DNA of 64,000 nucleotides from an uncultured Poribacteria bacterium (GTDB taxonomy: Bacteria; Poribacteria; WGA-4E; PCPOR2b). Under the pieces are notes generated by a model. That model saw only the letters and a list, made by a program, of their open reading frames with translations, was not told where the DNA came from and did not search any database. A program made the translations under genes and the position numbers. The stretch covers positions 806,001 to 870,000 of the forward strand of contig OY282444.1 in NCBI GenBank assembly GCA_958296125.1. Reading direction: 5' to 3'. Positions 12,118-33,398 of this stretch are shown here, piece by piece (positions within the stretch are counted from its first letter, which is position 1; every line of letters starts with the position of its first letter).

Positions 12118-13068
12118 CTAGAACTTCGATATGAGTGAAAATCGGTGGGCGGCCCCGAGTTTGCCGTAGGAGACAAAGGCGTAGTCAAGTTGAAAGCCCT
12201 CAATGCTAAATCCGATCCCGCTGGTGATTCCGGATGCCGTACCCAAATCGTTGCCGCCGAGTTTGTATTTGTAACCCGCACGCAGGTGGATGAGTTCGTA
12301 AGCTGTGAACGCCGCACCCACGCCAACGGTGGAGTCATTGTCGCTGGGGCGGTTCACATCAGCCACAAGGGTAAACGCTTCGTCCAGCAATCTATACGCC
12401 ACACCGACTTTGATGTTAAGTGGCAGACTAAAGGATTCTTCAACGAACTTGGCTTGGGCACCGAGATGTTGGACGTTGAATCCGAGAGAGAGTGAATTGT
12501 TGAGGATAGCGTATAGTCCCCCTATATCAAATGCGATAACTTGGGCACTTTCCGTGTCAATCTTTTCGCGAACCCATTTGACGTTGGTACCCACAGACAG
12601 CGCGGTTCCGAATCGGCGAGCATAAGAGGCAATCAGGGCAAGATCATAAGGATGGAAGTTCTCTGTTTTAACGGGCTCGCCACTTTCATTAATGTCGTAT
12701 CCCTCAAGTTCACCATAAGAGAGGTAGATGAGACTCCCGCCGAGTGTGCCTGCATTTCCGAGGGGCTGTGCAAAGCCGATGAATTGGTGGTTAATCCCTT
12801 CAAACCATTCATTGTGCATGAGACCGAGTTGCGGACCTTGCAGCTGGGTTAATCCTGCCGGATTCCAGTATATGGCATACAGATCGTCTGCATCAGCGAC
12901 TTGAGACTCTCCCATACCGATGGCTTTAGCACCAACGCCGATCTTCAGGAATGTCATTGCCCGTGTCCCGACGTTTTCGTGAATATCCGCGCCATCGGCT
13001 GCCATCCATGGGCACAGTACAATTCCACAAAATATAAAAAGACTGAAATATCTATTAAATCTTGGCAA
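12118..13068 (-). CDS. PorV/PorQ-family outer-membrane beta-barrel protein
   Basis: About 316 residues. The start is a TTG at 13068, preceded by a textbook AGGAGG five bases upstream; this gives a clean signal peptide ending ADG/ADI. Mature sequence: GTRAMTFLKIGVGAKAIGMGESQVA and DLYAIYWNPAGLTQL, the hallmark start of PorV/PorQ (UPF0164) proteins, followed by alternating strands and a C-terminal aromatic (ISKF) typical of barrels. PorV is a type IX secretion partner in Bacteroidetes; in other phyla the family role is unclear. No other secretion gene is adjacent. Confidence 0.82.
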   Translation of the reverse strand: MPRFNRYFSLFIFCGIVLCPWMAADGADIHENVGTRAMTFLKIGVGAKAIGMGESQVADADDLYAIYWNPAGLTQLQGPQLGLMHNEWFEGINHQFIGFAQPLGNAGTLGGSLIYLSYGELEGYDINESGEPVKTENFHPYDLALIASYARRFGTALSVGTNVKWVREKIDTESAQVIAFDIGGLYAILNNSLSLGFNVQHLGAQAKFVEESFSLPLNIKVGVAYRLLDEAFTLVADVNRPSDNDSTVGVGAAFTAYELIHLRAGYKYKLGGNDLGTASGITSGIGFSIEGFQLDYAFVSYGKLGAAHRFSLISKF

Positions 13069-13201
13069 ACGATCCTCCTGATTGAGGCATACGAAACGAG
13101 CAATTATACTGAAAAAAGATGGAGGCATTATAGCGAATTGGAGTGGGTTTGTCAACACAAATCCGAATTGCTGAAGAGCATTTAGTTCTCCTGTAGGTTG
13201 A

Positions 13202-13266
13202 AAACTCCTCCGATCGGAGTTTACGAGAATCGGGATCGGAACGGAGAGGGATCTCCGAATCCCGAT
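13202..13266. repeat. Two palindromes upstream of the PorV-like gene
   Basis: AAACTCC-TCCGATC-GGAGTTT at 13202-13222 and a two-step hairpin at 13229-13266 with outer stem ATCGGGAT/ATCCCGAT and inner stem GGAGA/TCTCC. They lie in the gap after the zinc-ribbon gene. Extragenic palindromes; the second could also end the zinc-ribbon transcript, though no T run follows. Confidence 0.55.
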
Positions 13267-13345
13267 ACAACACTCAGACAAGGAGAAAACCGAAAACTAA
13301 ATAGCCCTACGGTTGCTAACGCAAGTGGCTCGATCTGCGTAAGAC

Positions 13346-20347: not shown

Positions 20348-22270
20348 TTACCACCAACTATACACGGAGGTGGTGAGGATGAGGCTCAGGATTGGCCAGA
20401 AGCAACCCATTACCGCTTCGCCGAGAACCAATCCCACGAAAAAGGGGATTGCTGCGCGATACGCTTTGATGCCACCATGCTTGATTAGCAGCCACTTGGT
20501 AACCATTGCGATCGCTACAGGGAACCAGATCATATCTGTAGTGCCGGGCGCAAGACCGATAACGTAGCCTGCCGGGTGAAGTGGGCACCAAACGAAGCGC
20601 GCACGCAGAAACATGATACCGAGGTTCACGAAAAAAGCAAATCCGAGGACGCTCATTGACAACCAATTCGTTGGCTTAGGATTGACCAACCACCCAGAGA
20701 GATAGTTGTAAGTTCCTGCACCCCCGGCATGAATCTGTTCAGACCCCGCCGCAACCCCTGTCTTGTAAATTGTATATGGATAAAGGATGAGACTGGATTC
20801 GATACCCACAATGCTGGCAATGATCAGCACAATGAACATCGTCCGATTTCTGATGCCAGTTCGCTCTGCAAGTTTGAAGGACTCAAGTTGATCGGGTATC
20901 GGGTGGGTGCGGAAGCCAGCACCGCTGAGCCAGTTCATCAACGAGAGTATCGTCAAATTCCCTGCCTTTAAGCGTCGCGTCCCAAACATCGCAACCATAA
21001 GATATTGTGGGTTTATGTAGCCAATGGAGTGAATTGGGGGTCCCAACTCCGCCCGCATACGCGCCAATCCGACAACAATTGCGAAGTAAATGCCGATGAA
21101 AACGGCGTAGCCCCAGATTGACATCCCACCCGCTATGCAGAAAAGCATCAACACAAGGAGACAGATACACAGCGTGACGACGGCGGTTCGGTAGGAAATT
21201 GGCTCATTTGCCTCGTCAACCCGATTTGGACGGATGACGCGAGAGAGAACCTGCACAAAATGCTTTCTGCCGGTCCAACAGGTTACGGCGAGTAAAGCGA
21301 ATAGGGCACCTGTGCCCTGTTCCCCCAAGAATGGGTAGCCAGGAATACTCCTGATGCCTGCCATACTGCCAAAGACAAGCTGTGCCTTCCGCATGAGGTA
21401 GAAGAATGTACACGAGAAGGAAAGATCCAATGGGAGGACAAAGGAAAGACCAATCAGGTACGGGTGAAAATAAAAAGACGTGCTGCCCATCGCATTCCAC
21501 GGTTTCTGTGAAAAGCTGAAGACGTTTCTAGTGCGGTCATTAATGGGCAGAGAGGGAAGGATAGGGAAAAAAAAAGCAATCCCGTTCAGTAGGTCAATTC
21601 CAACGGCAATGCCAAAACCGATCCACAAGACATGATTCCTGAAGATGCTCCCGGACTCGGCTGTGATTTCGAGGGGGATTTGGATAATCGGATACGCTAA
21701 TTTCTCGCGATCGACCCACTGTCTTCTTATAAGCGATGTCAGACAGAGGAAAATAAGCATCAACGAAAAGATGACAATCGACCACGATAGGATGGGTGTC
21801 ACCCAATAACGCACGTAGCCACCCGTAAAGAAATTGACATTCCCTTCGTAAAAATCATTGACAGTTTTCGGATCGGAGATGACCAGCCAATCTGGCAAGT
21901 GGTGAAACAGCAACGCCGCCCAGTCGTTTTCAGGGGTTGCAAAGCGGAAGGCGTAGGGCATCAGGCCCATCAAGCGGGGCATAGCGTCGTGTCCTGAGAA
22001 GCAACTTCCCACCGCAAGCATCCCATAGATAACCAGCAGGTCTTGTTGGTTGAGAGCAGCTTTTGGCGCAATCTGACGGACAATTATGTTTAGCCATGTT
22101 ATTATCAGGACAGCGAACATGACGTTGACCGACAGCGAAACAGTCGTCAAATGCGCTGTATGCCATATCATTTCAACATAGGCAATCCAGTAGCTGTTGG
22201 CGATGATTAGCAACACGCCGATGAGCACCGCACGCTTTTTGATTGAGGTTATCGCGTTTGCGTCCTTCAT
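20348..22270 (-). CDS. Polytopic membrane protein, DUF6785/DUF6784-like
   Basis: About 640 residues with many hydrophobic segments. Characteristic stretches: YGMLAVGSCFSGHDAM, FATPENDWAALLFHHLPDWL, then RRQWVDREKLAYPIIQIPLE and the C-terminal PLHPAGYVIG. These fit a family seen in planctomycete- and Poribacteria-like genomes and known to me only as a DUF; function unknown, transporter-like topology. ATG 22270 is chosen because exactly this segment, including the start, is preserved in a duplicated relic at 26638-26669; no strong ribosome site is present. It follows a terminator-like hairpin after the secreted-protein genes. Confidence 0.78.
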   Translation of the reverse strand: MKDANAITSIKKRAVLIGVLLIIANSYWIAYVEMIWHTAHLTTVSLSVNVMFAVLIITWLNIIVRQIAPKAALNQQDLLVIYGMLAVGSCFSGHDAMPRLMGLMPYAFRFATPENDWAALLFHHLPDWLVISDPKTVNDFYEGNVNFFTGGYVRYWVTPILSWSIVIFSLMLIFLCLTSLIRRQWVDREKLAYPIIQIPLEITAESGSIFRNHVLWIGFGIAVGIDLLNGIAFFFPILPSLPINDRTRNVFSFSQKPWNAMGSTSFYFHPYLIGLSFVLPLDLSFSCTFFYLMRKAQLVFGSMAGIRSIPGYPFLGEQGTGALFALLAVTCWTGRKHFVQVLSRVIRPNRVDEANEPISYRTAVVTLCICLLVLMLFCIAGGMSIWGYAVFIGIYFAIVVGLARMRAELGPPIHSIGYINPQYLMVAMFGTRRLKAGNLTILSLMNWLSGAGFRTHPIPDQLESFKLAERTGIRNRTMFIVLIIASIVGIESSLILYPYTIYKTGVAAGSEQIHAGGAGTYNYLSGWLVNPKPTNWLSMSVLGFAFFVNLGIMFLRARFVWCPLHPAGYVIGLAPGTTDMIWFPVAIAMVTKWLLIKHGGIKAYRAAIPFFVGLVLGEAVMGCFWPILSLILTTSVYSWW

Positions 22271-22312
22271 GGTAGGAAACGGGCGAGGGATTCGGGGAAA
22301 ATTGAAAAGAAG

Positions 22313-22341
22313 AAAGCCCCACACCAAAAGGCGGGGGCTTT
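22313..22341 (-). terminator. Terminator-like hairpin after the 22.4-kb secreted-protein gene
   Basis: AAAGCCCC (22313-22320) and GGGGCTTT (22334-22341). Read on the minus strand the stem is followed by CTTCTTTTC. A near-identical copy is at 26712-26740 in the duplicated module. It lies between the ConA-like gene and the DUF6785-like gene, so it may end or attenuate transcription. Confidence 0.7.
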
Positions 22342-22389: not shown

Positions 22390-23187
22390 TTATTGACGGG
22401 CTTTCAGCGAACCCCAAGTGGTTGTTAGTTTACCACCGGGTTCGACCCCCTGTCCCTTGAGGTCGGTGACAACAAAGTCAGAAAATTCAACAGATGTGGC
22501 ATGGGTGCCCAGAGCAATCCTGCCTCCCTTATTGGCACCATTGATTTCCTTGCCTTCCCAGACCAATTCATCGTCAAGAAACATCTTAACAAGTATGGCA
22601 TCATTTTCAATTCTGACCCGAGTCTCTTTGTTTTTCGCGAGTTTGTGTTTTGATTCTGTGCCCTTTCTGTCTTTGGCAAGTCCATTCACATCTCTCACCA
22701 AAACCGATGCCTTACCCTCGCGACCGATATCCCACCAGAGTTTAATGCGACCTTTGCCTATCTCTTCGAGGCGTCCCTTTGCACCGGCATCACCTAAACA
22801 GAACGAACTGTTAAAACCGTCGCCACACTCTCTGCCGACCTGCACTTTCATATCATCTCTGATACGCCAGAAGATCAGGGCACCATTGTCGCCCCTCAGT
22901 TTCTTTACGCTTACCTCGAAAATATACTGCGTCATCTCTTCAAACTCTTCTGTCCAAGCTGTATCTGACATGTAGGCCATTGTGCGCTCTTGCACCGCGC
23001 CTTGTGTCAATTTACCGCCCTGGACTTTCCAATCTCCTGCGGCGAACATCCAGTTGTTTTTCGATCTCTCTGCGTTTTTGAAGTCATCCTCAAAAAGGAT
23101 TTTCGCCGTAGCGGTAGGGGACAAAAGGAAGCACGTCATGACACTAGCAAATCCGAGGGTGAATAGTGATGATAAAATTCTTTTCAT
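22390..23187 (-). CDS. Secreted ConA-like/DUF1080-type protein with C-terminal TWG motif
   Basis: 265 residues from ATG 23187 (GGAGGG ribosome site). Signal peptide ends near SPTATA. The mature protein begins ILFEDDFKN and contains GDWKVQGGKLTQ, QYIFEVSVKKLRGDNGALIFWRI, and VRIENDAILVKMFLDDELVWEG, the usual order of a concanavalin A-like sugar-binding or 3-keto-glycoside hydrolase-like sandwich. It ends KLTTTWGSLKARQ, a tail shared with the five related genes here. Paralogue of the 26789-27553 gene (roughly half of residues alike by eye). Last gene of the downstream module copy. Confidence 0.82.
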   Translation of the reverse strand: MKRILSSLFTLGFASVMTCFLLSPTATAKILFEDDFKNAERSKNNWMFAAGDWKVQGGKLTQGAVQERTMAYMSDTAWTEEFEEMTQYIFEVSVKKLRGDNGALIFWRIRDDMKVQVGRECGDGFNSSFCLGDAGAKGRLEEIGKGRIKLWWDIGREGKASVLVRDVNGLAKDRKGTESKHKLAKNKETRVRIENDAILVKMFLDDELVWEGKEINGANKGGRIALGTHATSVEFSDFVVTDLKGQGVEPGGKLTTTWGSLKARQ

Positions 23188-23319
23188 TTTAGCTCCCTCC
23201 CTGTTCGTAAAGCGATCGCCTACAGAATCACATCCGATCTGTATCCAATAAAAAAAATAAAAATAAAGCGTGATGCACTGATTTAATAGCGCATCACGCT
23301 TCATATCTGGACTCCGCGA

Positions 23320-24279
23320 TTACAGTCCTCGTCTTGCATTCAGCTTAATATTGCCCCACGTCATCGGGAGCTTATCCTTCGGGCTGACAGCGCGTACACC
23401 AATGAACTGGAGGTCGCCATAGATACAGACACAGTTGTCATTCTCAAAGGATGATGCCCAAGAGATAGCACCTTCTCGACTCTCACCCGCGTCTTCGTGG
23501 TCTTGCATCGTGGAGTCAAATCCGGTTACGACTCCATCTGTGAATTCCTGGGGCGCGATGGTCGAGATTCTCATCCCCTCCTTGTAGTCAATGGCAACTT
23601 CGAGAATCATGCCATCACCGGTTTGCGTCGCCGCTGTATTTTCCGAGCAATCTTCATCAAAGACGTGGACATCACCGAGCACCGCATTCTGCCCATGGTT
23701 CCACCAGCACGCGGGTTCGGAGGTGCCGGCACCCGTCCACGGTTTAATCCGATACCAGTGATCGCCGGGCTGCGGCTTGCAGCAGTCAACTTGCGCGAGA
23801 TCCCGGTCATCATTCCCCTTGGGCTGCCTGCAAGCGTTATGCTCCCAATCAAATTCAAGCCACAACTCATCCGTATGCGGTGCGGTGGGGACGCCTTTAG
23901 CTTTCCTCTCACCGCTATTGATATCAGTGGGCAAATCCGCATCCTTGACCACAGCAACATAGTAAAGACGCTCTTCGTCATAGAGGAACCCAAAATTATT
24001 ACTCAAATCGTCGGCATCATCAATGGTGCCTCGGCTCACTCGGTTTGGCGAGGTTTCCTCAAATAGGAACCAATCCGGAACCCGCTCGACATCCATGTGC
24101 ATATCAGCCTTCTGATATTCATCCCAATGTTCCTCATACTGCTCATCAACCTTGCCATCAATTTCAGGCGGCTTGTCTGCGAAGAAGGCTTTTGCTGTGC
24201 CTCCCGAATGTGCAAAAACAAGCACTGTAGAAAATAGCATTACTAACGCCATCGTGCATAGAATAGTGTACCTTAACAT
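23320..24279 (-). CDS. Secreted CBM9-like domain protein with C-terminal TWG motif
   Basis: 319 residues from ATG 24279 (GGAGGAG eight bases before). Signal peptide ends near FAHS. Seen: KPPEIDGKVDEQYEEHWDEY, LYYVAVVKDADLPTD, ELWLEFDWEHNA, the cysteine-rich middle (CCKPQ), and GAISWASSFENDN, the strand order of family 9 carbohydrate-binding (DOMON-like) modules. It ends with KLPMTWGNIK plus seven residues. Paralogue of 27664-28629: the two share the segments EETSPNRVSRG, PKGNDDRDLA and GREGAISWASSFENDN-like stretches. Role probably binding of extracellular glycans or haem; ligand unknown. Confidence 0.82.
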   Translation of the reverse strand: MLRYTILCTMALVMLFSTVLVFAHSGGTAKAFFADKPPEIDGKVDEQYEEHWDEYQKADMHMDVERVPDWFLFEETSPNRVSRGTIDDADDLSNNFGFLYDEERLYYVAVVKDADLPTDINSGERKAKGVPTAPHTDELWLEFDWEHNACRQPKGNDDRDLAQVDCCKPQPGDHWYRIKPWTGAGTSEPACWWNHGQNAVLGDVHVFDEDCSENTAATQTGDGMILEVAIDYKEGMRISTIAPQEFTDGVVTGFDSTMQDHEDAGESREGAISWASSFENDNCVCIYGDLQFIGVRAVSPKDKLPMTWGNIKLNARRGL

Positions 24280-24517
24280 GGTGTTATCTCCTCCATTTTT
24301 TTTAGTAAAGTGATAAAACGATGGTTCAGACCCATCTGAAATTGCACAATTTCTTGCGCTGTTAAACAACTCGGTTTTAATTTTTCAGACGTGATACAAC
24401 CGAATTGACACCGTATCTCGTCTGTTGACGCGCTGCCGAAGACATATTCATAGCGCGCACACTGTTCAGTGATAGTCAGGTTAGAGCCCCGCCCTAATAG
24501 AGCATCGGGCCCATGGG

Positions 24518-25330
24518 CTATTGCCCTGCTTTCAGTTCACCCCAAACCGTTGCCAATTTGCCTTTCGCTTCAACGGAAAAGGGATTACCTTCAGGTGTTG
24601 TGACAAACACATCATCTACCGTGATTTTACCATCAACGGTTCCAAAACCGATACGTCCTTGACCCTTAATATTTATATCTTTTTTCCCTAAGGCTTCAAG
24701 GTCAACAATAGGATCACCAAAATTTCCTGCAGCCACCGCTCCTGCGCTATCGGTCAGGTACAGCTTATAAATCTTTGCAGCATTCTCGATTTTGATATAA
24801 TAGTCTACCCCAGCGTTGATCTTTGTTTTGGTTTCGGTGATGTCCCATGGCTTGACAATAGTTCGGATATCACGTTGGACAACTGCACCCCCACCCTGTT
24901 TGAACCACCAATAAATCATATGCCGGCGACCACTCTCTTGCATCCGTTTGGGCAGACTTCCGGCGGGCGAAAAGTTACCCCCCTGTGAGCCATCGCTATG
25001 AAACCGCCAGACGATGGCGGGCTGAGTACCGCCCGAAATGGAGACTTTTGAGTAGAACCAATAATCAACCCATTCTGGATCCCAGTGGGCATCAGTGACA
25101 AGGATTAGACTTTTATCAGCCGATGTGTTTCTTAATTCCCCGGCTTGAATGGCCCATTTACCGAGGGCGGCATGCCATTTTCCTGAACCGTCTGTCTTAC
25201 CGCCCTTGAAATTATCCTCAAACAGGATTTCTATGGCTTGAACGAAACTCGGTGCAACCAGCGAGAAACTCGCCAAAACTGCAATTGCCGCAAACAGAAC
25301 CAGCTTGGGCAAGCGGTTAGTTTTATACAC
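24518..25330 (-). CDS. Secreted ConA-like protein with C-terminal TWG motif
   Basis: 270 residues from a GTG at 25330 preceded by AAAGGAGAG; the paralogue at 28849-29655 keeps the same GTG and ribosome site, which supports this start. Signal peptide ends near VQA. Core: ILFEDNFKGGKTDGSGKWHAALGKW, WFYSKVSISGGTQPAIVWRFHSDG, YYIKIENAAKIYKLYLTD, GRIGFGTVDGKITVDDVFV. This is the concanavalin A-like pattern with a terminal strand. C-terminus KLATVWGELKAGQ carries the shared motif. It has its own promoter. Confidence 0.82.
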   Translation of the reverse strand: MYKTNRLPKLVLFAAIAVLASFSLVAPSFVQAIEILFEDNFKGGKTDGSGKWHAALGKWAIQAGELRNTSADKSLILVTDAHWDPEWVDYWFYSKVSISGGTQPAIVWRFHSDGSQGGNFSPAGSLPKRMQESGRRHMIYWWFKQGGGAVVQRDIRTIVKPWDITETKTKINAGVDYYIKIENAAKIYKLYLTDSAGAVAAGNFGDPIVDLEALGKKDINIKGQGRIGFGTVDGKITVDDVFVTTPEGNPFSVEAKGKLATVWGELKAGQ

Positions 25331-25395
25331 GGCTAACTCTCCTTTCAAGTTTCGATTATGAGAAGAAACGTAAATCACGATACAAAGCTTATGGT

Positions 25396-25424
25396 ATTTT
25401 ATTACACGTATAGTTATCTGTCAA
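25396..25424 (-). promoter_or_regulatory. Sigma70-type promoter of the downstream secreted-protein module
   Basis: On the minus strand TTGACA (25424-25419), 17 bases, TAAAAT (25401-25396). Start of transcription near 25389, about 60 bases before the GTG at 25330. It lies downstream of the HEAT gene stop, so this module copy can be transcribed on its own. Confidence 0.65.
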
Positions 25425-25493
25425 CAAAAAAAATCCCATCCTCCTAATCCTAAACTAAAAAAGGAGATAAGACCGCCTATAGATTATTGCTAA

Positions 25494-26504
25494 CTATTTC
25501 CTTTCACTATTTTTTCTAAATTCTTCGACCGCTTTTGCTGCTTCTGGCGCGTCTATTTTTAGTAGTGCTTCGAGAGCATGGTAGCGAACCCCTTTATGCT
25601 CATCGTCCAATGCCCCTATCAACACAGCCACGACACCTTGAGCGGAATTCGCCACACCCCCTAGAGCCGTAACTGCTTCCTCACGGATATGCCAATCTTT
25701 CGTTTGTAATGCGTCTATCAACATCGAAATTGCCTCATCAACCGGTTCGCCGATTCTGCCTAGTGCAATGGCAGCGGAGAGAGCAACTCTTTCATCCTCA
25801 TCCTTCAGGGCTTGCGTCAATGCTGGCAGAGCTGCTTGTGCCGGTTTACCTATCCGTCCCAATGCGTCAGCAGCGTAGCGGCGCGCTCCTTTATCCGCGT
25901 CCTGCAATGCCGCTATCAGTGCCGGGACAGCCGCTTGTGCCGATTCACCAATCCCTCCGAGTGCTTCGGCAGTCCGACGGCGCACCCCCTTATCCGCGTC
26001 CTGCAATGCCGCTATCAATGCAGGAACCGCTGCGTGGCCCGATTCACCGAGTCGACCCAATGCCTCCGCGACCTTGGAACGGACCCATGGCTCCTTATCT
26101 TTCAAGGCATCCACTAGTGGCGGAACGACATCCTGCGCGTAATTCTTACCGAGTTTCCCCAATAATTCAGCAACCTTGGAACGAACTGTCACATCTTCTT
26201 CATCCTTCAGCGATTCTATTAACGCAGGAATGGCATCTACGGCAGGTTTACCCATTGTGCCTAACGCCATCGCTGTATAGCGACGAACATGTTTATCTTC
26301 ATCCTTTAATGCCTTTATTAATAGCGGCAGCACGAATTCTACATGGTTTTTGCTCACTCGAACCAATTTTTCGGCAGCATCCCGTCGAACGATGGGGTTC
26401 TCGTCACTCATTTGTATACTATATATCTCCACACTGTGTCCGTTAGATTCAAACGGTATCACTATCAAAGTAAAACAGAGCAAAAAAAATATCCTTGATT
26501 TCAT
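25494..26504 (-). CDS. Secreted HEAT/PBS-lyase repeat protein
   Basis: 336 residues: signal peptide (ends near ESNGHS) then about eight HEAT-like repeats with the recurring pattern VPALIAALQDADKGVRR..AEALGGIGE. Repeats 4-6 are almost identical in DNA; a 28-base stretch recurs exactly with a 99-base period (25891-25918 and 25990-26017), so repeats have recently duplicated or been homogenised. No enzymatic domain. Such proteins serve as scaffolds for protein contacts. It lies exactly between the two copies of the secreted-protein module. Confidence 0.85.
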   Translation of the reverse strand: MKSRIFFLLCFTLIVIPFESNGHSVEIYSIQMSDENPIVRRDAAEKLVRVSKNHVEFVLPLLIKALKDEDKHVRRYTAMALGTMGKPAVDAIPALIESLKDEEDVTVRSKVAELLGKLGKNYAQDVVPPLVDALKDKEPWVRSKVAEALGRLGESGHAAVPALIAALQDADKGVRRRTAEALGGIGESAQAAVPALIAALQDADKGARRYAADALGRIGKPAQAALPALTQALKDEDERVALSAAIALGRIGEPVDEAISMLIDALQTKDWHIREEAVTALGGVANSAQGVVAVLIGALDDEHKGVRYHALEALLKIDAPEAAKAVEEFRKNSERK

Positions 26505-26637
26505 TTTTTTTCGATTTTCTCCTAATTATGTTATTGTGAATTTCTATGCAATCTGGGAGCAATTCGCGCAGCGAAACCCAACTCCCACTATTACAGAAGT
26601 ACAGACAAATCGCCCAGAAATAACAAGATAGGTCTTA

Positions 26638-26669
26638 TTGATTGAGGTGATCGTGTTTGTGTCCTTCAT
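26638..26669 (-). pseudogene. Relic of the DUF6785-like gene start
   Basis: Thirty-two bases matching 22239-22270 with three differences and ending with the same ATG (26669-26667) and following codons for MKDxNxITSI. The frame then leaves the homology. It marks the edge of a segmental duplication. Confidence 0.7.
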
Positions 26670-26711
26670 GGCAGGAAAGAGGCGGGGCTTTCAGGGAAAA
26701 TCGGAAAGAAG

Positions 26712-26740
26712 AAAGCCCCACACCAACAGGCAGGGGCTTT
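26712..26740 (-). terminator. Terminator-like hairpin, duplicated copy
   Basis: AAAGCCCC (26712-26719) and GGGGCTTT (26733-26740), with the same flanks as the copy at 22313-22341, including about 35 identical bases of the preceding 3' untranslated region. On the minus strand it follows the 26.8-kb secreted-protein gene. Confidence 0.7.
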
Positions 26741-26788
26741 ACGAAGCATGTCTTACTAATATAAACAACTGAATACAAGAGACTAGAT

Positions 26789-27553
26789 TTATCGAAGGAC
26801 TTTCAGTGAACCCCAGGTAGTTGTTAGCTTATCACCCGGTTCAACCGACCGTCCCCTGAGGCCGGTCACAAATACATTGTCAAATTCAGCAGTCGTACCC
26901 AGGGTGCCGACACCAACCCGTCCACCCTTATTCCCATTTAGGTCCTTTCCGTCAAAGATCATTTCACCGTCAAGAAACAGCGTCATGAGATTGCCTTGAT
27001 TGATAATCTTGACATGGACCGGCTCATTTCCCATCTTGTGTTTTGTTTCGGTCCCCTTTTTTGTTGGAGCAACTCCCCTGACATCTGAAACGACAAACGA
27101 CGACTTGTTTTCCCAACCAATTTCCCACCAAAACTTGATACGACTTTGTTCTTCGGCAAGCCGCCCTTTAACCGGTTTATCAAGCAGTAATTGTTTAGGG
27201 TCATCTCTGCCGGGAGCGGGTTGCATGTTGTCGTTGATCCGCCAGAAGATGCGAACCCCGTTTTTCCCTCTGAACTTTCTGGCAGTCACTTCAAAAATAT
27301 ACTCACTCCACGTGTCATCCCAAAAATCATCTGAGATGACAGCAATAGTTCCGCTGTCAGGATCATTCTGTTTGAGGGCACCCCCCTGCACTTTCCAATC
27401 CCCCTGCAAGAACGCCCATTTCGCTTCAGAGGCCTTCCCCTTTGAGAAATTGTCCTCAAACAAGATTTGAGCAGTACTAGGAGAACATACGATTGTGAGC
27501 ATCACAGCACCGCCAAAAGCCAGCGTGAATAAAGCCGATAAAAATGCCTTCAT
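26789..27553 (-). CDS. Secreted ConA-like/DUF1080-type protein with C-terminal TWG motif (second copy)
   Basis: 254 residues from ATG 27553 (GAGAGG six bases before). Signal peptide ends near PSTA; mature start QILFEDNFSKGK. Matches the 22390-23187 product along its whole length (GDWKVQGGALKQ, EYIFEVTARKFRGKNGVRIFWRI, GGRVGVGTLGTTAEFDNVFV) but it is shorter and lacks the cysteine pair in the loop of that paralogue. Ends KLTTTWGSLKVLR, the shared motif. Only about 110 bases after the CBM9-like gene. Confidence 0.82.
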   Translation of the reverse strand: MKAFLSALFTLAFGGAVMLTIVCSPSTAQILFEDNFSKGKASEAKWAFLQGDWKVQGGALKQNDPDSGTIAVISDDFWDDTWSEYIFEVTARKFRGKNGVRIFWRINDNMQPAPGRDDPKQLLLDKPVKGRLAEEQSRIKFWWEIGWENKSSFVVSDVRGVAPTKKGTETKHKMGNEPVHVKIINQGNLMTLFLDGEMIFDGKDLNGNKGGRVGVGTLGTTAEFDNVFVTGLRGRSVEPGDKLTTTWGSLKVLR

Positions 27554-27663
27554 GAAAATCCTCTCTGTATTTTTAGAAGAAAGGGACACCCCTGCAAATG
27601 AAAATATAGCGCGTGATATACCAATGTTACAGCATATCACGCTTCAGGATTTTAACCGATACC

Positions 27664-28629
27664 TTATTCGTTCGCTCTCTTCTTGATATTTCCCCATGTG
27701 ACAGGAAGCTTATCTTGTGGGGTAACCGCACGGGTGCCAACAAAGAGGAGGTCGCCGAAGCCACAAACCATGTTGTCGTTTTCAAAGGACGATGCCCAAG
27801 AAATAGCACCCTCTCGCCCGAAACCTTTCACATCGTGATCGTCGATCGTGCTATCAAAACCCCAGACGACTCCATCGATCGGCGGCAGGAGATTGGGTTT
27901 CTTTGACCCCTTGAACATGTTCTGATAGGTTACTTTCCCTTCATAGACGTAACCGTTGGGGGTTAGCTTGGTCACCACGTTTTCTGTACACTCTTTATTA
28001 AGGGTGGTACCTCCCGCAGGATTCGTACCGAGACTGAGCCAACAGCCGGGAGTGGTGTCTTGAATGGTAAACACTTTAAACCGAAAATACATATCTCCAT
28101 CAGAAAAGAGGCAGTCGGGATCTGCAGCCAAGTCCCGATCATCATTCCCTTTGGGAACCTTCGCCGCGTTGTGTTCAAAGTCGAACATCCACCACATTTC
28201 GTCGTTGCCTGCATTGGGGCCACCACCTTTTGCAACTACATCGTCATCAAGATCTGTGAAAACGACATCGTCTGTAACAACCATGACATAGTAAAGCCAT
28301 TCTTCGTCGAAGAGCAGCCCAAATTCGCTGCTCCAGTCCTCGTCACCATCGAAGTTGCCCCGGCTGATTCGGTTTGGCGAAGTTTCATCGAAAATAAACC
28401 ATTCCGGTGTCGTCTCAGGCTTCATGTGCATACTCGGACCGGTGCCATCGTCCCCCGCCTGAAACTCAGCCCAACGCTCCTGCCACTCCGGATCGTTGGG
28501 GTCTCCGTCAATCACCGGGGGATTATCTGTGAAGAACGCGTTCGCGATTCCTCGCGAGTGTGCAAAGGCAAGCGAAGCACTAAATATCATGGCTAACACC
28601 ATTGTAAGGGTGATAACATACTTAAACAT
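27664..28629 (-). CDS. Secreted CBM9-like protein with C-terminal TWG motif (second copy)
   Basis: 321 residues with a signal peptide ending near LAFAHS. Segments: NPPVIDGDPNDPEWQERW, FDETSPNRISRGNFDGDEDW, LYYVMVVTDDVVFTDLDDD, EMWWMFDFEHNAAKVPKG, GREGAISWASSFENDNMVC. Same fold and order as 23320-24279. Rich in Asp and Gly turns, which suggests calcium sites. Ends KLPVTWGNIK plus five residues. Middle gene of the upstream module copy. Confidence 0.82.
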   Translation of the reverse strand: MFKYVITLTMVLAMIFSASLAFAHSRGIANAFFTDNPPVIDGDPNDPEWQERWAEFQAGDDGTGPSMHMKPETTPEWFIFDETSPNRISRGNFDGDEDWSSEFGLLFDEEWLYYVMVVTDDVVFTDLDDDVVAKGGGPNAGNDEMWWMFDFEHNAAKVPKGNDDRDLAADPDCLFSDGDMYFRFKVFTIQDTTPGCWLSLGTNPAGGTTLNKECTENVVTKLTPNGYVYEGKVTYQNMFKGSKKPNLLPPIDGVVWGFDSTIDDHDVKGFGREGAISWASSFENDNMVCGFGDLLFVGTRAVTPQDKLPVTWGNIKKRANE

Positions 28630-28848
28630 CTTGATTTTCTCCTTTAGTTAGGTGAGTTTTATAAAACGGGGTTCAAGCGAACCTGTTTGGAAAGATACAA
28701 TTCATAACACCGCTGAAACTGTGTCTATGTTCTTTACTCTTAAGCACTGTTAATAAACCTCAAAGCTTCATCAGAACGCTATATCTTCCAAAAGCCAGCA
28801 TCACCTCCTTCTCGTTTTCGGATGGGCATAGGAGCGAGCAGATTGCGT

Positions 28849-29655
28849 CTATCGGGTCGTCCTAGATTTCAACAGACCCCATGTGGTCGCCAACTTGCCG
28901 TGCGCTTCAACCGAAAAAGGATTGGTGTCAGGCTCCGCAACATATACGTCGTCTACCTTAAATCGGCTGTCTATGGATCCAAAACCGATTCGGCCTCTCC
29001 CCTGAATATTGATATCTTTCACATCAACAACGGCATCACCATAATCCCCTGACTTTGCCAACGCCCCATTGTCGGTCAGGAAACAACGATAGCCTTTGGG
29101 ATGATTTTCGATTTTGACCCAGTATTGTTGACTTGTTTTCAGCTTTGTTTTTGTCTCGGTCTTGGCAAATGGTTGGGAAACCGTCTTTATATCGCGCTGG
29201 ACAATAGATCCTTTCCCTTCTCTATTCAACGCCCAATATATGACATGGCGGCTTTCATTGTTTTGCAAACGCTTGGGCAAATTACCTGGGTTGCTAAACT
29301 TGCCTCCTTGCTCACCCTTGGTAAAAAAACGCCAGAAGACACCAAGTTCTTGCCCGCCTGTCAGCGTGATGGTTGAGAAGAACCAGTAGTCAGTCCAAGC
29401 GTCATCCCAGTGGTCATCAGTAACCAAGATAAGTCCCAACTCAGCCCCCTGTTTTACCAGTGACCCGCCCTGAATCGTCCATTTTCCGAGAGCGGTATGC
29501 CATTTTCCCGTACCATCTACCTTTCCGCCTCTAAAGTCATCCTCAAACAAAATTTCCCCTGCCTGAGCCAGACTCGGTACGATAAGAGCAACACTCGCCA
29601 AAACCGCTATCGCCACAAACAGGACTTGTATGGGTGAATTGTTAGTTCTGTACAC
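28849..29655 (-). CDS. Secreted ConA-like protein with C-terminal TWG motif (second copy)
   Basis: 268 residues from GTG 29655, preceded by AAAGGAGAG exactly as in the 24518-25330 gene. Signal peptide ends near AQAG. Core: ILFEDDFRGGKVDGTGKWHTALGKW, YWFFSTITLTGGQELGVFWRF, VIYWALNREGKGSIVQRDI, GRIGFGSIDSRFKVDDVYV. Ends KLATTWGLLKSRTTR. First gene of the upstream module copy; about 220 bases separate it from the CBM9-like gene. Confidence 0.82.
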   Translation of the reverse strand: MYRTNNSPIQVLFVAIAVLASVALIVPSLAQAGEILFEDDFRGGKVDGTGKWHTALGKWTIQGGSLVKQGAELGLILVTDDHWDDAWTDYWFFSTITLTGGQELGVFWRFFTKGEQGGKFSNPGNLPKRLQNNESRHVIYWALNREGKGSIVQRDIKTVSQPFAKTETKTKLKTSQQYWVKIENHPKGYRCFLTDNGALAKSGDYGDAVVDVKDINIQGRGRIGFGSIDSRFKVDDVYVAEPDTNPFSVEAHGKLATTWGLLKSRTTR

Positions 29656-30158
29656 GGCTAACTCTCCTTTCAAATTTCGATAATGACAAAAAAATGTCAA
29701 TGGTGACACAAAGCGAAGAATTTTTTAACTCAAGTTGCTAGGTTCTGTTGACATTTGACACATTGAACCAATCATGGATACGCCTTCAGGTGGTTTAGGA
29801 CAACCGCCTCGGTTTTTGGCAGAGGCCGCCTGATGATTACAGGGTTAGCCGAATGGGTGCCAACCAAATGTCAACACGCCCTATCTCAACAACATGAGTT
29901 TAAGGGAATGCGTTGGCATTCCGTTAGGAGATTCGCTTCAAAAACAAATAAAACATTATATTTATTATTCTATAGCATTATAATATTGCTGTCAAGACTT
30001 TTTTACCATAATTATTTTTTGAGAAGGGGAAGGATAATAGATATACTATTATTTGTCAAATACCGATAAACATTGACTCGGGCATCGGGGTTCGTCCTAA
30101 TAAATCGGGATTTAGATCCGTTCACTGTTAATCAACCTTTCTTTTTGAAAGTAAGTAT
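29656..30158. other. Intergenic region upstream of the secreted-protein module
   Basis: No gene seen. Very AT-rich around 29945-30065. A perfect hairpin GGAATGC-GTTG-GCATTCC lies at 29905-29922. It separates the restriction-modification gene (ending at 30159) from the secreted-protein operon and must hold the promoter for the latter; no clear -35/-10 pair was found. Confidence 0.45.
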
Positions 30159-33100
30159 TTAAGAGTTGATTTGCAGGCAAGCCCCTATATCTTTCACAAT
30201 CTCCACTGTCTCCAAACTGACCGCAATCACCTGCCCGATAAGTTTGACGATATACTGCGGGTCGTCCACACGGTTCGGGTCGTTGACGATGCCACTCCGC
30301 TTGTCCGTCTTGACGCAATACTGATTTATCACCCATTCCAACGCCGACCGATTCCCAAGCCGATAGTCAAACGCCTTCGCGGGTATCCCCTCCAGCGTCA
30401 GGAAATCGTTGTATACCAGCTGCGTTTTGTCTTTGGAGAGCTTCATCTTCTCCACGTGCCATAACCCCCTGCCCTGCAAGTGGTGGGAAAGATTGATCGG
30501 CCCTTCACGGTTTTCAATGAAATGTAGGGGATATTCGGGCACATCCTCATAGCCGATGTGGATTTCCCCCAACCGTTTCCCGGCTTTGGCAAACCCCCAG
30601 AAGTCGGGCGCATACGGCAGGCGCGGCAGGTCACGCTTGAGGTTGGCTTCATACTGCTCCCGATAGTCGGGATGATGCAGGAGAGCGTAGACGTAATGGA
30701 AGATGTCCCATTTGGTGATTGCCGCGTCTCGGTAATGTCTCCGGAATTGATCCAACGCCCAATCGGTGATGTTCTCCCGGCGGTTCCCCCCCTCCTCGTT
30801 GTAGGTGTAAAAAGGGAAGGATTGTTGCGGGTCAGCATAAAAGTTCAAATCAGGAATAGATTTGCTCATCAAAACAGCAAATTCCTTTCGACCGTAGCCC
30901 CCGACACAAATCACCCGATTTTCTGTCTCTGTTTCAGGTGTAGGGAAAATAGATGGAAAAACGTATACTCTCTGGTTCATCATTCGGTCAAAGTAAAGGT
31001 TCGACTTCGTAAATGGGCGATAGAGGGCCGTCCTCACCTTTTCCTGTGAAAAATCTAAGGTTTCCCCTCTTTTCAAGTCCTGTTTAAATCTATCTGTCCA
31101 CTTGATTTTCGTGTCATCGTAAATTACAAAATCATCAACGTTTGCATCCCGATCTGCCCGCCGTTCCCACTTAAACACCTGCTCATTGTAGGAGTCAATT
31201 GTCCGCTCCATGTTCTCGGCAAGTGCGTTTCGGTTGAAGTTGTAAACCCACGCATCACGGCTTGTGATGACACCGAGACTATAAATCTGGAAAATCACAT
31301 CCACTGCTTTACCTTTTGCTGCCTTCGCTCTCTTAGTTCCCATCGGGATAAAGGTCTCAAATTCGGCGTGGAGCCCTTCGGTCAGCCATGTGTAGCGTGC
31401 GTCGGGCCGAATGGCCCGCCAATCTATATTGCCGATGTGTCCGCGTTCAGTCAGAAAATCGAACTTCTGTTTTTTGCCCCATAGGTCATCAGTGCGATAG
31501 TAAAAGATGCGGGCAGGGACAGAGCTATCCCCGTCTGTAGTTAGGCGACTTATCTCGGAATTGCGTATCGGGGCAGGGATGCCCCTCCCACCCTGGTCTC
31601 GGCACGGACAGCTAGTCGGATGATTTATCGCCCGCCCGGTCTTCACAAATAGGTTAATACTTACACCGACCCGAATCCCGAACACATTGGCATCCGAGAC
31701 CTTCCCTGGTCTCGGCACGGACCCTGGTCTCGGCGCGGACAATCCCTTCCGGGAATTCCCACCCAAGTCCAGAATGTAAATCGTGTCGAAATCGTCTGCG
31801 AGGTGTTTCCGCATCCCATCAAATGCTACACCGTCAAGAAAACTGTTATTTGTTACGAAGGCGACGACTCCTTGATCTCCTATACGGTCGGATGCCCACC
31901 GAATCGCCTTCACATACGGGTCGTAGAGTTTACTTCTGAGCGTCGCTTTAGAGTCTTGCGAATAGGTTTCCGCAACCCGCGCATCCACCGTTGGATATTT
32001 CCGATTTTTGTTGTTGTCATTTTCGTTGGCCTGACCAACGTTATAGGGCGGATTGCCGATAATCACAAACATCGGTGTCCCCTTTTGACTCTCAACGCGC
32101 TGTGTGTTCTCCGGTGCGAATAGCGGCAACTGTCGGTCCTCTGCCAGTTCAAACGTATCCACAAGGCAGATCCCTTCAAAGGGGTGATAGTGCCCTGTCA
32201 CCTCGTCAAACTGATGCTCAATGTTCAGCGAGGCGATATAGTAGGGCAGCAGCATCATCTCGTTACAGTGCAATTCTGTTGTGTATTTATCCTCAAGTGC
32301 GGTTGGACGAATCTCGCGCATCGTCCGCACGATGAAATTGCCCGTCCCCACAAACGGGTCGATGATGTGAACACCGATATCGGCGAGCGATCGATTGAAT
32401 TGGGTCTGTAGAATCTCCTCAACACTTCTCACCATGAAATCGACAATCGGCTGCGGTGTATAGACCACCCCGTGGGTATCTGCGATTTTGACGGAAAAGC
32501 CTTGAAAAAACCGCTCGTAAATGGTGTTGAGAAATCCCTGCTTTTCGGAAAAGTCGGCGCGGGTCGCGGCGGCTCGTTCGATCGCTTTATAGAAGGGATC
32601 CAGTTTTTTGAGAAAAGCATCGCGGCTAAAGGACCGCTTGGTGAGCGCGTCTATCACCTTCTCAATTTCATTGCCGATGATATTGCGGCGGATGAAGTCA
32701 GGATTGTTAAAAACGGTTCGGAAAATCCGCTCGGTCAATAGGTGCTGAATCAACATCTCCTCAACAGCGGCCTCGGAGAGGTTGGGGTTGAGCGAGTCAC
32801 AGCATATCGCGTGGAAGGCAGCAAAGGCAGTGGCAAATTCCTGGTTTACCTCTCGTTCCTCTTGGATGCGTTTTGCCAAACCCTTCCCAAGCGCGGGCAC
32901 CTGGTCTGTGAATTTTTCAACGGCCTCTTCCCATTCGGTGTATTCTTGTGGACGATGGGCAAAGAAGGTTTGAAGCACCTCGATCAGCTGCGTAGAGTCG
33001 GTTAGGTCGACATCGAGCTTCTGCCGATCGTTCTGCCAAAGGATGGCACGTTGTGGGGTTTGGAAGAGGATGTTGTCGCGGGGGTAGCCTGTCTCAAACT

Positions 33101-33398
33101 TGTGCTGGATTTCCTGCTCTATATCGTCGTGGATATCCTTTGCCTCCCAATAGCCGCGCGTCAACCGGAAATCATCAATCAACACACCGTCAACAACAAT
33201 CCGTTTTTTTCGACGGCCGGTCATTGAATGTTCAGGGACAAGCGTCCAATCAAACCGTCGTGCACAACCTTGGAGCAGGGATTGGAACGCCGAGCGCACG
33301 GCTCCCTCATGCGTTTTGCCGAGTCGATCAAACCGATCCAACTCGTTGTAGTAGTCTTTAATGATTTTGCGTGTTGATTTGAGATTGAGGGTTGTCAT
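30159..33398 (-). CDS. Type ISP-like restriction-modification protein (nuclease plus N6-adenine methyltransferase)
   Basis: 1079 residues. Seen: N-terminal nuclease-like region (VDGVLIDDFRLTRGYWEAKD near residue 70-90, a PD-(D/E)XK-like pattern), a helical connector, methyltransferase motif I DPFVGTGNF near residue 345, motif IV NPPYNVGQ near residue 455, and a long C-terminal target-recognition region. The SF2 helicase domain of the longer type ISP enzymes is absent, as in a shorter group of this family. Two runs at about residues 553-565 and 590-615 look inserted: they are repeat DNA in frame (see separate entries). A stand-alone gene with a very short leader. No separate specificity or anti-restriction gene is near. 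Confidence 0.87.
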   Translation of the reverse strand: MTTLNLKSTRKIIKDYYNELDRFDRLGKTHEGAVRSAFQSLLQGCARRFDWTLVPEHSMTGRRKKRIVVDGVLIDDFRLTRGYWEAKDIHDDIEQEIQHKFETGYPRDNILFQTPQRAILWQNDRQKLDVDLTDSTQLIEVLQTFFAHRPQEYTEWEEAVEKFTDQVPALGKGLAKRIQEEREVNQEFATAFAAFHAICCDSLNPNLSEAAVEEMLIQHLLTERIFRTVFNNPDFIRRNIIGNEIEKVIDALTKRSFSRDAFLKKLDPFYKAIERAAATRADFSEKQGFLNTIYERFFQGFSVKIADTHGVVYTPQPIVDFMVRSVEEILQTQFNRSLADIGVHIIDPFVGTGNFIVRTMREIRPTALEDKYTTELHCNEMMLLPYYIASLNIEHQFDEVTGHYHPFEGICLVDTFELAEDRQLPLFAPENTQRVESQKGTPMFVIIGNPPYNVGQANENDNNKNRKYPTVDARVAETYSQDSKATLRSKLYDPYVKAIRWASDRIGDQGVVAFVTNNSFLDGVAFDGMRKHLADDFDTIYILDLGGNSRKGLSAPRPGSVPRPGKVSDANVFGIRVGVSINLFVKTGRAINHPTSCPCRDQGGRGIPAPIRNSEISRLTTDGDSSVPARIFYYRTDDLWGKKQKFDFLTERGHIGNIDWRAIRPDARYTWLTEGLHAEFETFIPMGTKRAKAAKGKAVDVIFQIYSLGVITSRDAWVYNFNRNALAENMERTIDSYNEQVFKWERRADRDANVDDFVIYDDTKIKWTDRFKQDLKRGETLDFSQEKVRTALYRPFTKSNLYFDRMMNQRVYVFPSIFPTPETETENRVICVGGYGRKEFAVLMSKSIPDLNFYADPQQSFPFYTYNEEGGNRRENITDWALDQFRRHYRDAAITKWDIFHYVYALLHHPDYREQYEANLKRDLPRLPYAPDFWGFAKAGKRLGEIHIGYEDVPEYPLHFIENREGPINLSHHLQGRGLWHVEKMKLSKDKTQLVYNDFLTLEGIPAKAFDYRLGNRSALEWVINQYCVKTDKRSGIVNDPNRVDDPQYIVKLIGQVIAVSLETVEIVKDIGACLQINS
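31591..31634 (-). repeat. Dispersed repeats inside the restriction-modification gene (copy B plus palindrome)
   Basis: Two repeat types side by side. 31591-31609 is GTCCGTGCCGAGACCAGGG on the minus strand. 31614-31634 is a palindrome-like unit almost the same (two differences in 21 bases) as 61615-61635, where it is intergenic. Here the 19-mer is read as CPCRDQG, a different frame from the copies at 31704-31740. Flanking codons (AINHPTS, RGIPAPIRNSEI) also look foreign to the enzyme. Confidence 0.75.
31704..31740 (-). repeat. Tandem copies C and D of the dispersed repeat, in frame
   Basis: Two copies with an 18-base period, read as S-A-P-R-P-G and S-V-P-R-P-G. They split the methyltransferase sequence between LGGNSRKGL and SDANVFGIRVG, which are adjacent in family members as I recall them. 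The enzyme frame stays open because each insert is a multiple of three. Confidence 0.8.

Follow-up and report, generated by a model that had tools for sequence, protein, structure and literature searches.

Poribacteria are an uncultured phylum known from sponges. We analysed a window of 64,000 nucleotides, part of a single 5,156,246-base contig from a member of this phylum, and focused on a short C-terminal tail (hereafter, the tag) shared by six secreted proteins that a duplicated module in the window encodes. The first-pass annotation had proposed that these tails act as a sorting or anchoring signal. All six were found as it had described them, in frame, last in their open reading frames and on the minus strand, with 3-7 residues and the stop codon following the motif:

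22390..23304, minus strand: carrier 1, secreted ConA-like protein with a weak 3keto-disac_hyd match (Pfam and shared-body alignment)
22390..22446, minus strand: tail 1, VEPGGKLTTTWGSLKARQ-stop; motif K..K at 22402-22431
23320..24369, minus strand: carrier 2, secreted CBM9_1-like protein (Pfam E 7e-07, above cut-off)
23320..23388, minus strand: tail 2, VSPKDKLPMTWGNIKLNARRGL-stop; motif K..K at 23344-23373
24518..25378, minus strand: carrier 3, secreted ConA-like protein (shared-body alignment)
24518..24574, minus strand: tail 3, VEAKGKLATVWGELKAGQ-stop; motif K..K at 24530-24559
26789..27640, minus strand: carrier 4, secreted ConA-like protein with a weak 3keto-disac_hyd match (Pfam and shared-body alignment)
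26789..26845, minus strand: tail 4, VEPGDKLTTTWGSLKVLR-stop; motif K..K at 26801-26830
27664..28629, minus strand: carrier 5, secreted CBM9_1-like protein (Pfam E 3.8e-05, above cut-off)
27664..27726, minus strand: tail 5, VTPQDKLPVTWGNIKKRANE-stop; motif K..K at 27682-27711
28849..29709, minus strand: carrier 6, secreted ConA-like protein, tail unstructured in the AlphaFold model (alignment and AlphaFold)
28849..28911, minus strand: tail 6, VEAHGKLATTWGLLKSRTTR-stop; motif K..K at 28867-28896

The N-terminal signal peptides claimed for the six carriers could be read on each of them as a hydrophobic core followed by an A-x-A site (judged from the sequence, not with a dedicated predictor). The division into two folds also held. 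Two carriers matched CBM9_1 above the Pfam cut-off, and the other four have one alignable ConA-like body in common, which the 3keto-disac_hyd model matched weakly or not at all and which AlphaFold predicted, at low confidence, to consist mostly of strands.

We searched the DNA of the whole genome for the pattern K-[LF]-x3-W-G-x-[LIVMF]-K, using the reversed pattern as a control. The exact pattern was found 32 times and its reverse once; with up to one mismatch, the numbers were 59 and 18. Given this excess of exact matches over the control, the six tails in the window are not chance occurrences. Reading of the flanks identified all 32 exact matches as the ends of signal-peptide proteins, and with relaxed matching 47 signal-peptide proteins of this genome carried the tag, their folds including LamG, kelch, CBM9, a TolB-like propeller and ankyrin.

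The same pattern was present in 85 of 85 Poribacteria genomes, representing 22 of 22 genera, at 6-128 copies per genome (reversed pattern: 0-4 copies). Of the few carriers elsewhere in the phylum that seemingly had no signal peptide, several were frameshifted genes. The lineage search for the motif near the C-terminus, which had been suggested as a check, thus found it recurring on signal-peptide proteins of many folds, neither confined to two families by duplication nor, as judged from the 32 exact matches and the frameshifted exceptions, placed on cytosolic proteins. A tighter pattern run against 84,980 species returned at least 80 stretches, of which 77 among the matches listed were titled Poribacteria. 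The three others listed came from genomes with only two matches each: a 12-residue frame (L192), a lone 15-residue frame (L169) and, in a sponge bin, a pair of tagged genes that share a contig (L142). These look like contamination, misbinning or chance. Among the matches listed, the tag is essentially confined to Poribacteria.

Near the C-terminus, the consensus reads V-[ED]-[PA]-x-x-K-L-x-T-T-W-[GA]-x-[LI]-K, with W invariant. The tag is a peptide of ~15 residues that follows a variable linker and mostly ends 1-5 residues ahead of the stop codon. Among the loci read, nearly all of them from the phylum, 181 of 182 exact matches have 0-12 residues between them and the stop, 3 being the commonest number. 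The control for chance matches was a longer pattern on viral contigs, where most matches are fortuitous: it gave 67 matches, 10 of them in frame and C-terminal, and after removal of two that belonged to the tagged phage family described below, 8 of 65 (~12 %) remained. The V at position -4 (99 % conserved) and the P/A at -2 (90 %) constitute independent evidence because neither was part of the search pattern; the T-T positions did belong to the tighter pattern, and their conservation percentages are biased.

When homologues were collected by their bodies only, with the tail excluded from the bait, 240 of 242 carried the tail, and W was retained in 240 of 240. Its G varies to A or S in these homologues, and K1 and L2 are variable. 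The two tail-less homologues were accounted for by a tail in another frame (L219) and a frameshifted gene (L134). In an alignment of 61 proteins with a mean identity of 9 %, the only (nearly) invariant columns were V, K, L, W, G and K of the tail and at most two glycines, so that the tail is more strictly conserved than the bodies that carry it. No Pfam 2025 or NCBIfam 2026 model covers the tail, and a search of the PDB with its consensus gave two chance matches, both internal.

The 189 carriers fell into 37 clusters with no detectable body similarity between clusters. They are small, mostly 220-340 aa. Among 61 tagged proteins, Pfam recognized LamG_3 (20), 3keto-disac_hyd (6), CBM9_1 (5) and kelch (3), with PD40, PKD, ankyrin and a DUF3108-like domain as singletons. 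For a LamG carrier, AlphaFold, given an alignment of 55 sequences, modelled the tail (mean pLDDT of the protein, 85) as a C-terminal helix of its own (residues 276-287, pLDDT 53-66) that follows a linker and lies outside the beta sandwich. In the model of carrier 6 from the window (six sequences, mean pLDDT 49), it is coil, with pLDDT <50. Analysis of the hydrophobic moment was ambiguous, with peaks at 120 and 160 degrees, and the helix is therefore an AlphaFold prediction only; we infer that it may form on binding. Since the models place the tail outside the folded domain, it is not that domain's last strand, in agreement with the 37 unrelated clusters and the lack of a Pfam or NCBIfam model.

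The tag also occurs on phage proteins. The IMG/VR contigs L280/L283, L282 and L284 carry genes for a T4-type DNA polymerase, UvsX and a DnaB-type helicase, and encode a LamG_3 protein of ~308 aa with a signal peptide and the tag (tails VEPKLKLTTTWGEVKK, IKSKLKLTTTWGEVKK and IEPKNKLVTTWGEMKKWK, respectively):

L280:12770-13696, L282:5498-6421 and L284:9983-10906 (IMG/VR): phage LamG carriers
L281:6457-6560 (IMG/VR): the same kind of phage tail end, at the contig edge

Over 87 residues, the body of the phage protein shares ~23 % identity with the nearest poribacterial carrier compared, and a search of 50,697 phage records gave no match to it. That the tag was kept on a protein whose body diverged is an argument that the host recognizes the tag. 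The tagged protein suggests that Poribacteria are the hosts of these T4-like phages and that the phage lectin is placed in the host envelope.

We conclude, with a probability of roughly 0.8, that the tail is a phylum-wide C-terminal sorting or docking tag of Poribacteria that is probably read after Sec export. The observations that the first-pass annotation had named as speaking against a sorting signal (a tail that is part of a known domain's final strand, restriction to two duplicated families, cytosolic carriers) were each looked for and none was made; the data support an address function. Sec export and removal of the signal peptide would come first. The tag would then be recognized by a periplasmic or outer-membrane receptor through its invariant Trp, with the flanking Leu/Lys face of the short, induced helix as an additional contact, and the small lectin- or propeller-like proteins would thereby reach a common destination, probably the cell surface. 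A type IX secretion system (T9SS) branch could supply such a reader: a SprA-like translocon, with one of the PorV-like barrels or another adaptor doing the reading. Two results weigh against a sorting function: no receptor was identified, and an analysis of gene-neighbour enrichment around 117 tagged loci revealed no dedicated partner gene, the tagged genes being dispersed.

Kamke et al. (2014) described T9SS C-terminal domains (CTDs) on proteins of Poribacteria and did not find the Por structural genes (PMC3909097). Among the 30 genomes that we searched, 29 have one SprA_N-like gene each of ~2200 codons, 10 of these scoring above the cut-off. The SprA-like gene of the window's own genome matched the Sov/SprA model TIGR04189 at 6e-42, which is below the model cut-off, and a phmmer search of the PDB with its product gave no match. 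C25 peptidases were present in 30 of 30 genomes; one in the own genome scored above the PorU cut-off (NF033707, 6e-129), and a PorV-family gene directly follows it. The PorV family was also found in 30 of 30 genomes, with 13-25 matches each (19 in the own genome), which seems unusually many. One member confirms the PorV-like gene noted earlier at 12-13 kb of the window by its matches to NF033709 and to PorV in PDB entry 6h3i, a SprA complex containing PorV:

12118..13281, minus strand, window: PorV/PorQ-family outer-membrane protein, candidate T9SS shuttle (NF033709 E 2.5e-62; PDB 6h3i PorV E 1.7e-14)
L099:5892-12404, L100:7181-13564 and L101:6851-14313, own genome: SprA-like gene, two PorU-like C25 peptidases (~2100 aa) and the adjacent PorV-family gene

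The classical CTD model TIGR04183 matched in 83 of 83 genomes, with ~48 proteins in the own genome. There, the PorV-family genes at L272, L273 and L274 adjoin very large CTD genes (987-3187 aa), an arrangement like that of cognate shuttle-substrate pairs. The motor component GldM (TIGR03517) was detected in 0 of 30 genomes, the control genomes being silent as well. Judging by these gene families, the outer-membrane parts of a T9SS are very likely present in Poribacteria, contrary to the single-cell report of 2014. Scattered over the own genome are also ~10 CTD proteins of ~2200-2380 aa with near-identical C-terminal domains (e.g. L251, L253, L254, L255, L258, L260-L263 and L267), a family of likely surface proteins that multiplied recently.

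A T9SS branch is in our estimate the single likeliest reader of the tag, although we would put it somewhat below even odds. The tag would be a further type of CTD, shrunk to ~15-20 residues and read by PorV-like barrels, a proposal that we hold with similar reserve; PorU-like sortases would perhaps cut the linker before V, where a small residue followed by V bears a resemblance, and only that, to a PorU site. As in T9SS cargo with CTDs of types A, B and C (TIGR04183, TIGR04131), a Sec signal peptide is combined with a signal at the extreme C-terminus, in genomes that hold SprA-, PorU- and PorV-like core genes. Body types are common to both sets of proteins, one of them occurring with either tail (L062 against CTD-bearing proteins, 107 bits). 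The shortest described CTDs measure 40-51 aa (Prevotella intermedia; PMC11969387), and T9SS shuttles can be CTD-specialized (PMC12618676); together with the shared bodies, these precedents make a T9SS branch possible.

Several findings count against this route. Even at ~15-20 residues, the tag is shorter than the shortest CTDs described, and CTDs are generally domains of ~70-100 residues, those of type A forming an Ig-like beta sandwich, whereas the tail is predicted to be a short helix or coil. It has no likeness in sequence or fold to the CTD beta-sandwich motifs B, D and E, none of which was found in it, and the list of families for the 61 tagged proteins contained neither TIGR04183 nor PF18962. 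The tagged and the CTD proteins have no member in common, and in the own genome they do not overlap in size either (exact-motif carriers, 233-358 aa; CTD proteins, 469-3199 aa). The CTD proteins that were read end in ...GxYFYxLxAGxFxATRRMLILK or similar, and none has the tag. PorV-like genes adjoin the large CTD genes and not the tagged ones. Although Bacteroidota have a T9SS, none occurred among the phylum-restricted tag matches listed. The proximity of tagged and CTD genes was also considered: in the own genome ~4 of 19 loci lie within 5 kb of each other, which is not clearly above a rough expectation.

Alternatively, and more tentatively, the tag may dock its carriers on a separate receptor, such as a surface lattice, an outer-membrane protein or a periplasmic assembly, with the T9SS uninvolved. 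Following Sec export, a short amphipathic helix would plug into a repeated receptor in the manner of dockerins or encapsulation peptides, an analogy that we regard as equally doubtful. These systems likewise join a recognition element to unrelated cargo through a flexible linker; dockerins are calcium-binding domains of ~70 aa, and encapsulation peptides reside on cytosolic cargo, unlike the Sec-exported cargo of the tag. A short linear motif on a flexible linker, with an invariant Trp and a helix predicted at moderate confidence, is what a docking element might look like, and the strict separation from CTD proteins in identity and size, as well as the absence of the tag from other T9SS phyla among the matches listed, also points in this direction. 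On the other side stand the negative results for a receptor or scaffold and for a conserved neighbour gene at the 117 loci, and the fact that a Sec-exported protein with no further signal would remain periplasmic, which fits lectin-like bodies less well. A bolder proposal, to which we assign close to an even chance, is that of a parallel, phylum-specific sorting pathway with its own receptor and a 15-residue tag that is neither transmembrane nor a CTD, operating beside the classical T9SS and exploited by T4-like phages for positioning their own lectin in the envelope of the host.

It is very improbable that the tail has no sorting role and is simply what duplication has passed on from the end of a single ancestral secreted protein. 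The LamG carriers do make up a single large cluster, with 105 of the 189 proteins, and tandem duplicates are frequent, but the 37 clusters of unrelated bodies, the stricter conservation of the tail and its retention on the diverged phage protein are at odds with such an origin.

The tag follows the same general logic as the C-terminal signals of the PEP-CTERM/exosortase and MYXO-CTERM/myxosortase systems. MYXO-CTERM in particular is found throughout its phylum, on dozens of secreted proteins in each genome (PMC11980579), to which the combination of a signal peptide with a short tag, also phylum-wide and dozens per genome, corresponds. MYXO-CTERM differs in that a Cys motif is combined with a transmembrane helix and a basic C-terminus, and PEP-CTERM in its PEP motif and transmembrane helix. 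In the tag's motif profile there was no Cys or Gly-Gly signature, nor the signature and transmembrane helix of GlyGly-CTERM; with 0-12 residues after the motif in 181 of 182 cases, no transmembrane helix with basic residues follows it, and the tail sequences showed no LPXTG-like motif with such a helix (no search for sortase genes was made). An exosortase-, rhombosortase- or myxosortase-type signal cut by an intramembrane protease is thus very improbable, as the motif has no transmembrane segment after it or directly before it and exosortase (PF09721) was found in 0 of 30 genomes while the positive control matched.

The tag looks like an undescribed address label for the delivery or docking of proteins in the cell envelope of Poribacteria. 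The first-pass annotation knew of no description of the motif; no family model covers it, and we found no description of it in the literature covered, outside of which lay most subscription papers and preprints. C-terminal tags have more than once led to new machines for secretion and anchoring: PEP-CTERM to the exosortase, MYXO-CTERM to myxosortase and the CTD to the T9SS. If the receptor is private to the tag, the pathway would be a new one. The tag, which has neither a name nor a family model, is universal in the sampled Poribacteria genomes and marks tens of secreted lectin- or propeller-like proteins in each. It thereby points out proteins that probably face the host or environment, offers a way to find the receptor and predicts the host of some T4-like phages. 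The evidence of type IX secretion genes in Poribacteria is a by-product.

Some neighbouring genes were also recorded. An ECF-type sigma factor region with a long C-terminal extension (~990 aa in total) was seen near tagged genes at L235:3783-6815 and at six similar loci; its recurrence in seven tagged loci may simply reflect a large family of the phylum. In the window, a HEAT-repeat protein with a likely signal peptide and no tag (25494-26504) separates the two copies of the tagged module, whose outer neighbours are a DUF6785/DUF6784 gene (20348-22327) and, on the other side, a type ISP restriction-modification enzyme (30159-33398).

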